From contig CANMGT010000007.1 of NCBI GenBank assembly GCA_947497495.1, forward strand, positions 1 to 64,000: a DNA stretch of 64,000 nt, in the 5' to 3' direction. The DNA is from an uncultured Lentibacter sp. Its GTDB lineage: Bacteria; Pseudomonadota; Alphaproteobacteria; Rhodobacterales; Rhodobacteraceae. This document shows positions 1,319 through 51,476 of this stretch, in pieces. Each line of letters opens with the position of its first letter. Position 1 is the stretch's first letter. Below the pieces are notes generated by a model, which was given only the letters and a program-made list of their open reading frames with translations, did not search any database and was not told the origin of the DNA. The position numbers and the translations under genes are program-made.

Positions 1319-2527
1319 CTATTGAGCGCGCTCAAGCGCCTTGATCCACAAGACCGAAGCCAGACTGGCAGCCGAGGTGAGAGCCATCACGCCAAGCAGC
1401 ACATAAGCGCCCCTATCGCCTGAGGCCAAAGCCCCCGTCAGCGCCGCAGCCCCTGCCCCGCCAAGCACACTCAACGCGCCAGACAGGCCCGAAGCGCTGC
1501 CCGCGAGCCTCGGGTTCACAGACATCACCCCCGCATTCGCTCCCGGGAGCGTCAGGCCATTACCAAGGCCGACAAAGATCGCCCCTGCAAACATCACCCA
1601 GACGTTCATGAGGCCAAGCGACATAAGCACCATCGCTGCGAGCGGGCCAAACGTGCCAAACACGCGCCCCAGCAGGATTAGTTTCAACATCCCCAGGCGC
1701 CTTGACAAACGTCCGGTGAGAAAATTGCCAAGCATAAAGCCGCTTGAAATTGACCCCATTCCAATGCCGATCTGCGAGGGAGACAGGCCAAAAACCCCTT
1801 CCCCAACAAGCGCAACACCCCCCAGAAAGGCGTAAAATGCGCCGACCGAAAACACGAGGCAAGCGGTATAGGCCCAGAACAGCCTGTCGCGCACGAGGTC
1901 CGGGTAGGCGCGGAACTGCTCGGTAAAGCTGGCTGTCGGCTGCAAGTTTGTCTCGCTCAGATCGCGCCAACAGATGACAGTCATAACCACGCCCATAAAG
2001 CCGTAGAGCGCGAAGTTGGCTCGCCAACCAAACTGCTCGCCGAGAAGCCCTCCAAGCATCGGCCCAAGAAGCGGCGCCAGCGCCATGGCGGTCCCGATAA
2101 CCCCCAAAAGGCGCGCGGCCTCTTCGGGGCGGGCAATGTCGCGCACAATCGCGCGGCTGAGAACCATGCCGCCGATGACAGCCCCCTGCAGCATGCGAAA
2201 CGTCAGGAAAACCCATATATTTTCAGACAGATAACACCCTAAAGATGCCCCTGTGAAAACAACCAGCCCGATCAGCAACACAGGCCGCCGCCCGTAGACA
2301 TCTGACAGGGGGCCGATCACAAGCTGCAGTGCCGCCGAGACAAGCATGTAGCCGCCCACCGCGAGCGATATCAGCCCGTAGCTGACATCAAAGCCCGTGG
2401 CCATCTGCGCAAGAGAGGGCAAAAACATGTTGAGCGACAGCACGGACAGGCCTGTCAGCAAGATCAGCGTGAGCATTTTGGGCTGGTGACGCTCTGGCGT
2501 GGCCAAAGCTGAAGACTCATGCTGCAT
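1319..2527 (-). CDS. MFS transporter, Bcr/CflA drug-resistance family
   Basis: 402 aa, ~12 hydrophobic segments, D-x-x-GRRPVLL loop typical of Bcr/CflA. Confidence 0.85.
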   Translation of the reverse strand: MQHESSALATPERHQPKMLTLILLTGLSVLSLNMFLPSLAQMATGFDVSYGLISLAVGGYMLVSAALQLVIGPLSDVYGRRPVLLIGLVVFTGASLGCYLSENIWVFLTFRMLQGAVIGGMVLSRAIVRDIARPEEAARLLGVIGTAMALAPLLGPMLGGLLGEQFGWRANFALYGFMGVVMTVICWRDLSETNLQPTASFTEQFRAYPDLVRDRLFWAYTACLVFSVGAFYAFLGGVALVGEGVFGLSPSQIGIGMGSISSGFMLGNFLTGRLSRRLGMLKLILLGRVFGTFGPLAAMVLMSLGLMNVWVMFAGAIFVGLGNGLTLPGANAGVMSVNPRLAGSASGLSGALSVLGGAGAAALTGALASGDRGAYVLLGVMALTSAASLASVLWIKALERAQ

Positions 2528-8300: not shown

Positions 8301-8385
8301 TGGTGCGGGTGAAGGGACTCGAACCCCCACGCCTCGCGGCGCCAGAACCTAAATCTGGTGCGTCTACCAATTCCGCCACACCCGC
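8301..8385 (-). tRNA. tRNA-Leu (anticodon TAG), CCA encoded
   Basis: Reverse complement GCGGGTGTGGCGGAATTGGTAGACGCACCAGATTTAGGTTCTGGCGCC...GGGGGTTCGAGTCCCTTCACCCGCACCA; long variable arm; anticodon loop TTTAGGT. Confidence 0.95.
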
Positions 8386-47713: not shown

Positions 47714-48346
47714 TTAGATGTCGATACGCTCTGCAATACTTAGAGCATCTTCTAGCTCAACGCCGAGGTAGCGCACCGTGCTATCAACCTTTGTATGGCC
47801 AAGCAGGAGTTGCACCGCGCGGAGGTTGCCTGTTTTGCGGTAGATTTCTGCAGCTTTAGTCCGACGAAGTGAATGGGTACCATAGCCACTGGGCTCCAAT
47901 CCGATCGCTGTCACCCAATCACGAACAAGTCGACCGTATTGTCGCGTCGAGATGTGGGGCCGATCGTGGAAACGGCTCGTGAACATAAAGCGACAACCAA
48001 TCATTTCGGGTGATGTGACCCACGCAATGACAGTATCTCTTGTGTTTTCAGTCAACTCGAATTGGACTGGTCGCTTGGTTTTGCTCTGGATGACCGAAAC
48101 CCGTTCGCGCGCGCGATCATCCTTGACCAAATCGGTCACGGTGAGTTTGACCAGATCACAGCCGCGCAGCTTGCTATCGATCGCTACGTTGAACAGCGCA
48201 AGGTCGCGAAGATAGCCCGCAATTTCGAGCCGCGCACGGATGGCCCAGACCTGCTTTGGCAATAGCGGTCGTTTCTGTCCGATTATCCGGCCCTTATTCC
48301 AAGCTCGGCGTTTCGGGGTGACGGCGGGAAGTTGGACTCTTGGCAT
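47714..48346 (-). CDS. short tyrosine-type recombinase/integrase
   Basis: SKLRGCDLVKLTV (catalytic R), GTHSLRRTKAAEIYRKTG (HxxR), VQLLLGHTKVDSTVRYLGV (H...Y). Confidence 0.9.
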   Translation of the reverse strand: MPRVQLPAVTPKRRAWNKGRIIGQKRPLLPKQVWAIRARLEIAGYLRDLALFNVAIDSKLRGCDLVKLTVTDLVKDDRARERVSVIQSKTKRPVQFELTENTRDTVIAWVTSPEMIGCRFMFTSRFHDRPHISTRQYGRLVRDWVTAIGLEPSGYGTHSLRRTKAAEIYRKTGNLRAVQLLLGHTKVDSTVRYLGVELEDALSIAERIDI

Positions 48347-48989
48347 GATTTGCCCTCCATCCAACCCTCCAACCCAAACATCAGCACCGCGCCGACGTCG
48401 AGAGCTTAGCATCGGATTGAATGGCCGTTGCCCGAAGGCTCAATTGCGTAGTATCTCTTCAGGTGCATTGGGCCGCAGCCAGTCCATTTTAACGGATGCT
48501 ACGAAATTCACTAAATTCGGCTTGGTGACGTGGTCCTTGCGATATTTTTCCAAATGTCCGTTTTTTCTCCGATAGCGAGGGTTGTCACCTTTCAGCCGAA
48601 AGGTGAAACGGCGCTCGTTGAAGAGGCTCATTTACGTCCTGACGGTGGCGTCTGTCGTGCTGAGGAATGGCCGCGGCGAACGCCCCGTTTACCTTTGACC
48701 ATGCTGCGTTGCAGCGCAAAAATTGTGCATACGCGTGCTGCACGGATAGCTGCACTGCATTATGCATACCGTAGGCACTTGCGATCCACTCGCAGTTTCT
48801 GCGTTTACACAAGTTACAATTTGGCTAATTTTCCGGCTCAAATTACCAATTCTGAGCTTTGCGGTGGGATTTTCGCAATAAAAATACAAAAAAAGCCACT
48901 CAAACGTTCATTTATTCAGGAATTCGCGGTTGACGCCCCTTTTGAGCGGGCATAGTGTCCTCGCGAACGCAGCATAGAGGGCTTCCGGC

Positions 48990-49037
48990 ATGACCGAGCT
49001 AGTGGTGATTGTGAGAAAATGGCGCATGGGCCGGTAA
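48990..49037 (+). CDS. ilvB leader peptide MTELVVIVRKWRMGR
   Basis: 15-codon ORF with upstream agagg RBS and L-V-V-I-V codon run, followed by alternative stem and terminator before ilvB. Confidence 0.8.
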   Translation: MTELVVIVRKWRMGR

Positions 49038-49086
49038 CGGCACCGTAAGGTAACCCCATGCGCCCCCGATGATCGGGGGTTTTTTT
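49021..49086 (+). promoter_or_regulatory. transcription attenuator of ilvBN
   Basis: GGCGCATGGG (49021-49030) pairs with CCCATGCGCC (49055-49064), overlapping the terminator stem CCCCCG-ATGAT-CGGGGG (49063-49079) plus T7 (49080-49086). Confidence 0.8.
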
Positions 49087-49124
49087 ATGTGCGAATACAA
49101 TGTGTTGAAACGGAGTTTGGAAAT

Positions 49125-50879
49125 ATGACACGTCAGATGACCGGCGCGAAAATGATCGTAGAATGTCTTAAGGACCAAGGCGTAGATACCGTCTTTGGCT
49201 ACCCGGGTGGGGCCGTGCTACCGATCTATGACGAAGTCTTCCAGCAAAACGCCATCCGCCACGTCCTCGTCCGCCACGAACAAGGCGCCGTCCATGCCGC
49301 CGAAGGCTACGCCCGCTCGACAGGCAAACCCGGTGTTGTTTTGGTAACGTCCGGCCCCGGCGCGACCAACGCGGTAACCGGCCTCACAGACGCACTCTTA
49401 GACAGCATTCCGATCGTTGTTCTGACGGGTCAGGTCCCGACGTTCATGATAGGCAATGATGCGTTTCAAGAGGCCGATACTGTAGGTATTACAAGGCCTT
49501 GCACCAAGCACAACTGGCTGGTTCGTGAGACAGAAAGCCTCTCTGCGACGATCCATGAAGCCTTTCACGTCGCCACAACTGGCCGTCCCGGCCCTGTGCT
49601 TATCGACATCCCGAAAGACGTGCAATTCGCATCAGCTGAGTACACGCCCAAGCAAAAAACTAAGGTTAGCCATTACCAACCGCAACTCAAAGGCGACATG
49701 GCCTCCATTGAGGAGCTCGTGGAAGCCATGGAAACGGCCAAAAAACCGATTTTTTACACAGGTGGCGGCGTCATAAACTCAGGCCCCGCTGCAAGTCAGC
49801 TGTTGCGTGAGCTCGTGGAAGCCACTGATTTTCCAATCACATCCACGCTGATGGGTCTTGGCGCCTATCCGGGAACTGGCAAGAACTGGCTTGGCATGCT
49901 GGGCATGCACGGCCTTTACGAAGCCAACATGGCGATGCACGACTGCGACTTGATGATCAACATCGGCGCCCGCTTTGACGACCGCATCACTGGACTCGTG
50001 GAAGCCTTCAGCCCGAAATCAACCAAGGCGCACGTCGATATTGATCCATCCTCGATCAACAAGGTCATCCACGTTGATATACCGATTGTCGGCGACGTCG
50101 GCCATGTCCTTGAAGACATTCTCAAAGTCTGGAAAGCCCGCGGCCGTAAAACCAACCGCGCAGGCCTGCAAGACTGGTGGAAGACAATAGACGCGTGGCG
50201 TGCTGTGAAATGTCTGGGCTTTGAGCAAAAGGGCCAGGTTATTCGCCCACAACATGCGCTCTCACGGCTCGAGGCGCTGACCAAAGACTATGATCGCTAC
50301 GTTTGCACGGAAGTTGGCCAGCATCAAATGTGGGCAGCACAATATCTCACTTTCAATGATCCCAACCGTTGGATGACATCAGGCGGGCTTGGCACAATGG
50401 GATATGGCTTCCCCGCTTCCATCGGCGTTCAGATGGCGCATCCTGAAAGCCTTGTCATCAACGTGGCTGGCGAAGCAAGTTGGCTTATGAACATGCAGGA
50501 AATGGGTACCGCGATGCAGTTTGGCCTGCCCGTTAAGCAGTTCATCCTGAACAACGAACGTCTTGGAATGGTTCGCCAGTGGCAAGAACTTCTGCATGGC
50601 GAGCGCTACTCGCAATCATGGTCGGAAGCCCTGCCCGACTTCGTCAAATTGGCCGAAGCTTTTGGCGCCAAAGGGATCAAAGTTGATCACGCCGATGACC
50701 TTGATGAAGCCATCAAGGAGATGATCGCACATGATGGCCCTGTTATTGTCGACTGCATGGTCACAAAGCACGAAAACTGCTTCCCGATGATCCCGTCTGG
50801 CGCACCGCACAACAAGATGCTCATGGGTGACGCAAACACCCAAGATGCAATCGGTGACTCCGGCGCAGTGCTCGTTTGA
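49125..50879 (+). CDS. ilvB: acetolactate synthase large subunit
   Basis: [48 protein letters not shown], ThDP motif region [15 protein letters not shown]; paired with small subunit. Confidence 0.97.
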
Positions 50880-50912: not shown

Positions 50913-51476
50913 ATGTCTCCGCTAAAGATCAAAAAAGGCTCAAACAAGCACTCGGCTTACAACCTGCGGCCAAACTTCAGTGACCAACAGGAAACGCATA
51001 CTCTCGCAGTTGTCGTTGATAACGAAGCCGGTGTGCTTGCGCGTGTTATCGGGTTGTTTTCCGGTCGAGGCTATAACATCGACAGCCTCACAGTCGCCGA
51101 GATCGACCACGAAGGCCGCCGCTCACGTATCACAATCGTAACAACTGGCACGCCTCAGGCCATTGAACAGATCAAGGCTCAGCTGGGCCGGATCGTGCCT
51201 GTACACGAAGTACATGATCTCACAGTAGAAGGCCCCGCCGTTGAGCGCGAGCTTGCGCTATTCAAGGTTGAAGGCACAGGCGACAAGCGCGTCGAAGCCA
51301 TGCGCCTCGCGGACATCTTTCGCGCCAATGTCGTTGACAGTACATTGGCTAGCTTTGTGTTTGAGATAACAGGAACGCCCGAAAAAATTGATGCGTTTGC
51401 TGACCTTATGCGCCCGCTTGGCTTGTCAGAGGTTGCACGCACAGGTGTTGCCGCCCTGTCTCGCGGCATAGTCTAA
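50913..51476 (+). CDS. ilvN: acetolactate synthase small subunit
   Basis: ACT domain HTLAVVVDNEAGVLARVIGLFSGRGYNIDSLTVAE. Confidence 0.96.
   Translation: MSPLKIKKGSNKHSAYNLRPNFSDQQETHTLAVVVDNEAGVLARVIGLFSGRGYNIDSLTVAEIDHEGRRSRITIVTTGTPQAIEQIKAQLGRIVPVHEVHDLTVEGPAVERELALFKVEGTGDKRVEAMRLADIFRANVVDSTLASFVFEITGTPEKIDAFADLMRPLGLSEVARTGVAALSRGIV

Follow-up and report, generated by a model that had tools for sequence, protein, structure and literature searches.

Classical enteric attenuators carry a protector segment, and their antiterminator overlaps the terminator over a large stretch. In the ilvB, ilvGMEDA, leu, his and trp leaders of E. coli and Salmonella, which the locus described here resembles in this respect, stalling of the ribosome at control codons picks either the antiterminator or the terminator. 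Among the Alphaproteobacteria, ilvBN of Caulobacter crescentus is attenuated (Tarleton, Malakooti and Ely 1994, as cited in PMC4117421), and leader peptides in front of ilvB have been predicted by genome comparison (Vitreschak et al. 2004, as cited in PMC1273637). Several ilvB uORF motifs are known (PMC10272879), and in the ilvBNC operon of C. glutamicum a boundary GCC switches between antiterminator and terminator, with GCC mutations affecting ilvB expression (PMC11857589).

Here we describe the region in front of ilvBN in a 64,000-nucleotide stretch of DNA from an uncultured Lentibacter sp. (Rhodobacteraceae), the whole of which we refer to as the window. Sequence comparison indicates that positions 48930-49086 very probably constitute a ribosome-mediated transcription attenuator of ilvBN. 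It is unlike the classical enteric attenuators in that antiterminator and terminator overlap by only about 3 nt and in that the antiterminator arm is part of the leader ORF, 5' of its stop codon. An earlier reading of the window, made from its letters alone (the sequence-only reading), had named the enteric operons as precedent for ilv attenuation; this precedent holds, though Caulobacter ilvBN and, for the small overlap, C. glutamicum ilvBNC have to be set beside it.

Results

Anatomy of the ilvBN leader region

The features of the region, with the evidence for each, are as follows.

48930-48958, plus strand: predicted promoter, with -35 box TTGACG (48930-48935), 17-nt spacer and -10 box TAGTGT (48953-48958); sequence and family comparison
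48976-48981, plus strand: Shine-Dalgarno-like AGAGGG, 8 nt 5' of the leader ATG; sequence, with AGG or GGAG similarly placed in most relatives
48990-49037, plus strand: predicted 15-codon leader peptide ORF, MTELVVIVRKWRMGR, followed by a stop codon; sequence and family conservation
48999-49013, plus strand: control codons CTA GTG GTG ATT GTG (Leu-Val-Val-Ile-Val); sequence and family codon bias
49021-49030, plus strand: 5' arm of antiterminator stem S1, GGCGCATGGG, within leader codons 11-14; sequence and covariation
49031-49040, plus strand: inner hairpin P2, CCG-GUAA-CGG, with the leader stop UAA inside its GNRA tetraloop (49034-49037); covariation
49042-49051, plus strand: second inner hairpin P3, ACC-GUAA-GGU; predicted fold, seen by eye in many relatives but variable
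49055-49064, plus strand: 3' arm of antiterminator stem S1, CCCATGCGCC; sequence and covariation
49062-49086, plus strand: intrinsic terminator, GCCCCCGA-UGA-UCGGGGGU followed by U7; sequence and pairing in relatives
49125-50879, plus strand: ilvB, acetolactate synthase large subunit; NF006581, 1108 bits, above cut-off
50913-51476, plus strand: ilvN, acetolactate synthase small subunit; NF008864, 220 bits, above cut-off

The predicted transcription start, at about 48965, lies 25 nt 5' of the leader ORF. A simple promoter scan of the window missed the promoter, which has few consensus bases in its -10 box; family comparison recovered it. Further 5' lies an ORF of the phage integrase family (tyrosine recombinase) on the minus strand (47714-48412). 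The leader ORF, the 10-bp stem and the T7 terminator given by the sequence-only reading match the sequence base for base: the two S1 arms are perfect complements over 10 bp, and the terminator DNA reads GCCCCCGA-TGA-TCGGGGGT at 49062-49080, with an 8-pair stem starting at 49062 and the T7 run at 49080-49086. The two-base overlap between stem and terminator claimed there stands if Watson-Crick pairs are counted (49063-49064), and grows to three nucleotides, GCC at 49062-49064, once the G49062-U49080 wobble is included. The minimum-energy fold of the leader, at -47.1 kcal/mol, has S1 and the terminator both present, with a z score of only -1.7; folding energy being this weak, comparison is needed and it is conservation that convinces.

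Conservation across the Rhodobacteraceae

Eighty loci came from named genomes and about 110 more loci were drawn across Rhodobacteraceae genera; an automated scan looked for a short ORF that carries a Leu/Ile/Val cluster and precedes a T run. The layout is present in 186 of 192 ilvB loci, which include some duplicates and yield 177 distinct leaders. An unbroken five-of-five Leu/Ile/Val run occurs in a short upstream ORF at 150 of 182 loci, against 0.5 expected from shuffled sequence and none on the reverse strand. All 175 distinct relatives have TTGAC at a similar upstream distance, where shuffling would give 15 of 182; the promoter spacer is 17 nt in 159 relatives and the -10 box is mostly TAATGT. 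Between the final control codon and the S1 arm lie 7 nt in 130 of 177 relatives, as in the window, and mostly 10 or 13 nt in the others. Such an alignment of ilvB upstream regions within the family had been set beforehand as a check, and it came out in favor of the claim, with a conserved branched-chain amino acid leader and stems that covary; the observation at 48990-49086 is confirmed as real, far beyond chance.

The loci missed by the scan include one cut by a contig end (L048), one element with a poor T run (L168) and one diverged element (L121). At the other three (L062, L171 and L188), no attenuator was apparent before ilvB on inspection among the 192 family loci, and these few genes appear to have lost it; L062 has promoter-like sequence directly 5' of ilvB. 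A candidate conserved motif 3' of the U tract, ATGYGC, was dropped as it is present in only 59 of 175 relatives.

Covariation of the stems

In an alignment of 122 sequences (A2), standard pairs fill 93.7% of the cells of S1 and P2, and five pairs are changed on both sides (17 cells), a level reached by none of 500 shuffles. When the partner strand is slid as a control, pairing falls to 21-60%. The three P2 stem pairs show both-side changes in 8, 2 and 4 sequences, and the terminator is paired in 99.8% of cells across the 122 relatives, with compensatory changes unmatched by any of 500 shuffles. In diverged loci the stem is kept with other letters, as in L180 (GCGCGCCTG/CAGGCGCGC), L185 (GCGCGGG/CCCGCGC), L060 and L068, and in L153 a column shared by the two helices changes together with its S1 partner while terminator pairing is still kept. 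The S1 sequence is conserved beyond the needs of pairing, such that an additional constraint may act on it. The P2 loop is GTAA or GTGA, both of GNRA type, in 152 of 177 leaders, with the stop codon inside the loop. TAA is the stop in 136 of 177 leaders versus 39 of 80 ilvB genes, an excess that is consistent with a structural preference.

Control codons

Rare synonyms are strongly enriched at the control positions of the relatives' leaders. CTA makes up 41% of Leu control codons, compared with 2.4% of Leu codons in the ilvB genes, and GTA makes up 50% of Val control codons, compared with 5.1% (P < 1e-70). In the window's own leader the Leu codon (CTA) is the sole control codon of the rare kind, the Val codons being GTG. 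In charging theory a bias toward rare codons is a route to sensitivity, the CUA codons of the leu leader being the standard example (PMC1183508); the E. coli and Salmonella leu attenuators share the use of rare CUA control codons with the leaders described here. The window also contains a tRNA-Leu(UAG) gene, the product of which would read CUA, at 8301-8385 on the minus strand.

Ribosome position and antagonism between S1 and the terminator

Ribosome footprints were placed on the leaders with 12 nt taken as covered downstream of the first base of the A-site codon. When the stop codon occupies the A site, the footprint would mask the S1 arm in 178 of 180 relatives; when a control codon occupies it, 7 or more bases of the arm would in most cases stay free. 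Since the arm is covered at the stop and exposed at nearly all control codons, S1 should be the starvation structure and hence the structure of readthrough.

S1 and the terminator share 2-3 nt at 167 of 182 loci, and the end of S1 lies between -4 and +3 nt from the terminator base at 180 of 182. Five relatives (L166, L180, L185, L060 and L068) have instead a gap of 2-3 nt and no bases common to the two helices. In thermodynamic calculations for the window, the outermost terminator G-C pair has a probability of 0.999 without S1 and 0.30 with it; the corresponding values for the median relative are 0.997 and 0.77. The terminator hairpin left once S1 is complete has -7.0 versus -14.7 kcal/mol. 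The modelled equilibrium is therefore one in which the terminator would be weakened and not abolished, with a partial antagonism by S1. The weakening of the terminator by the stem, as proposed in the sequence-only reading, is borne out insofar as basal pairs lose probability, but its mode is subtler than was assumed, as the helices can coexist. With an overlap of only 2-3 nt and both helices able to coexist, weakening must act via the basal pairs, via abutment, or both. Strict competition for sequence as the sole mechanism was rejected, given the gaps in some relatives and this coexistence. For the gap relatives we infer steric exclusion, in that a duplex lying directly against the base of the terminator would be forced into the RNA exit channel.

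Copies in front of Bcr/CflA-type transporter genes

At E <= 0.1, a covariance model built from S1, P2 and the terminator (R1) finds a match in 147 of 150 genomes from the order. In 385 genomes of the class, the best 11 matches outside the Rhodobacteraceae (40-65 bits) all lie just 5' of a Bcr/CflA-type MFS gene and none before ilvB. Further copies precede the same type of transporter within the Rhodobacteraceae (L250-L253, L262, L263 and L272), a weak copy (L302, 19.6 bits) was located through its protein, and in one other family nine of nine new R1 matches stand before a Bcr/CflA-type gene. In all, 28 transporter copies were collected from 11 alphaproteobacterial families (L226-L236, L250-L253, L262, L263, L272, L302 and L310-L318). 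Seven of the transporter proteins were scanned and match TIGR00710 (Bcr/CflA efflux), six of them scoring above the curated cut-off and the seventh slightly under it. The leaders of the transporter copies end similarly and contain codons for Val and Ile, examples being MNPKSVVVVVSRRCMVR, MKQIVVVVGERRLDR and MTTVSIVSKRRRGKP; covariation is weaker in this smaller set than in the ilvB set.

The element precedes only some Bcr/CflA-type genes, and the window's own gene of this type (1331-2497, minus strand) was checked and has no such leader upstream. Those R1 matches below about 33 bits that were inspected (L237, L239, L241, L254 and L255) look like ordinary gene-end terminators. The transporter leaders were also considered for an arrest motif of the macrolide type (+X+), which is not conserved by eye and was dropped. 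The literature searched yielded no report linking the attenuator module to Bcr/CflA genes.

Discussion

The ilvBN leader combines a branched-chain amino acid leader ORF with putative translation, a terminator before the structural genes and an antagonist helix controlled by ribosome position, as expected of an attenuator. The attenuation model put forward in the sequence-only reading gains support from the conservation of promoter, Shine-Dalgarno sequence, branched-chain codons, maskable stem arm and abutting terminator. In this model, transcription would start at about 48965 and a ribosome would begin translation of the 15-codon leader. With ample charged Leu-, Val- and Ile-tRNA, the ribosome at the stop codon would cover 49021-49030 and block S1, the terminator would close fully and transcription would end at about 49086, giving a leader RNA of about 120 nt. 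With scarce charged tRNA the ribosome would stall on CTA-GTG-GTG-ATT-GTG and the S1 arm would be exposed; S1 would form ahead of synthesis of the terminator 3' arm. S1 would then take the boundary GCC at 49062-49064 and abut the terminator, the basal pairs beside the U tract could not close and, with these open, RNA polymerase would probably read into ilvBN.

The alternative that fares best, though we consider it unlikely, is the classical four-segment design of the trp/his type, in which an upstream protector would pair with the 5' arm of S1 when the leader is not translated, making termination the default. This is the best-studied design, and C. glutamicum ilvBNC does have an anti-antiterminator hairpin (PMC11857589). 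However, when 99 whole leaders with their 5' UTRs are folded to a consensus, S1 and the terminator are the sole helices, with no protector helix (1:2) upstream of the antiterminator, and in the minimum-energy fold of the window the 5' part forms a weak hairpin of its own and S1 is undisturbed. As there is no conserved protector helix, S1 should form in an untranslated leader RNA and allow readthrough, in contrast to trp-type attenuators.

A slightly weaker candidate is that the leader senses a general slowing of translation, through antibiotics or stringent stress, and not branched-chain amino acids specifically. The presence of the same module before efflux-type Bcr/CflA genes, a kind that is often drug-induced, would fit this idea, as would those transporter leaders that keep only an Ile-Val pair. 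It sits poorly with the ilvB leaders, which nearly always have 4-5 Leu/Val/Ile codons out of five at a fixed distance, and with their enrichment in rare synonyms, which is expected of charging-sensitive control codons (PMC1183508).

We regard as improbable a scheme in which attenuation is secondary and the terminated RNA of about 120 nt, or its peptide, acts in trans like Sinorhizobium rnTrpL/peTrpL. Attenuator products with functions in trans are known (PMC10117765, PMC7298713), a terminated leader RNA is predicted here, and the RMGR end of the peptide is widely conserved. RMGR nonetheless changes together with the stem: L042, L052 and L101 have HMGR and a 3' arm that compensates for it, and the ends of L180 and L185 are wholly different. 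We therefore rejected conservation of RMGR for its amino acids, as RNA pairing and not the peptide explains it. A small RNA of the Rfam Atu_C8 type, or a metabolite riboswitch, in place of a leader-peptide attenuator can be dismissed, since the only Rfam match, full-length to RF02502 at 48989-49094 (19.8 bits, E 3.2, against a gathering threshold of 50 bits), is at chance level, an unrelated site in the same genome scoring 19.6 bits, and what is conserved is an ORF, the stop codon of which sits in a hairpin loop, together with a terminator.

The leader-peptide attenuator is a form of ilv control conserved across a large, ecologically important family, with named parts that are open to mutation. 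Its small overlap makes it well suited to testing how few bases an antiterminator has to claim from a terminator, and with no protector helix present, an untranslated leader is predicted to give readthrough and not termination. As for the transporter copies, we favor with some reserve the interpretation that one attenuator RNA, consisting of S1, the stop-codon hairpin and an abutting terminator, serves two unrelated genes, namely ilvBN in the Rhodobacteraceae and, across at least 11 alphaproteobacterial families, that of a Bcr/CflA-type MFS transporter. The transporter would be attenuated via its Val/Ile codons and so may handle a branched-chain compound or respond to inhibition of translation, and the module would have moved between genes and would work by abutment with an overlap of at most 3 nt. 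Such a transfer may have gone from transporter to ilvBN or the reverse, the sequence being too short to show its direction. If functional, these copies would provide a regulatory clue for a transporter family with mostly unknown substrates, and would exemplify the passage of an attenuator module from one gene to an unrelated one.

Comparison with known attenuators

The closest counterpart in operon and class is Caulobacter ilvBN, which also has tandem Ile/Val codons and a rho-independent terminator as outlined in PMC4117421, a likeness drawn at the level of codons and terminator and not of helices. R1 found no strong element before ilvB outside the Rhodobacteraceae in the genomes searched, so the Caulobacter RNA presumably differs in sequence or has drifted. 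The alphaproteobacterial predictions of Vitreschak et al. 2004 are similar in placing a leader peptide before ilvB, as reported in PMC1273637. Two atypical loci from other alphaproteobacterial families (L208 and L217) have short Leu/Val/Ile leaders before ilvB, with the stop codon in a hairpin loop and then a terminator; their leader sequence is unlike R1. Before cysS in the Rhodobacterales, uORFC-8-2 likewise has a uORF bearing control codons and then a stem with a terminator next to it, but its Cys codons lie inside the first stem and the gene is another one, and its three-stem junction is rare and without covariation (PMC8632094).

In design, the nearest counterparts are Corynebacterium ilvBNC and ilvB-II, where the uORF spans the first stem and the second stem is the terminator (PMC11857589, PMC10272879), and where only the boundary trinucleotide GCC is common to both helices, as is GCC 49062-49064 in the window. 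The Corynebacterium ilvBNC leader differs in its leaderless start, its anti-antiterminator hairpin and its unrelated sequence and phylum, and the likeness of the window to ilvB-II is a resemblance of design, not homology. Attenuation of ilvBN is of a kind already known, and the ilv attenuator of this family is ordinary, well-conserved biology; the copies in front of transporter genes are the part that a specialist would not expect.
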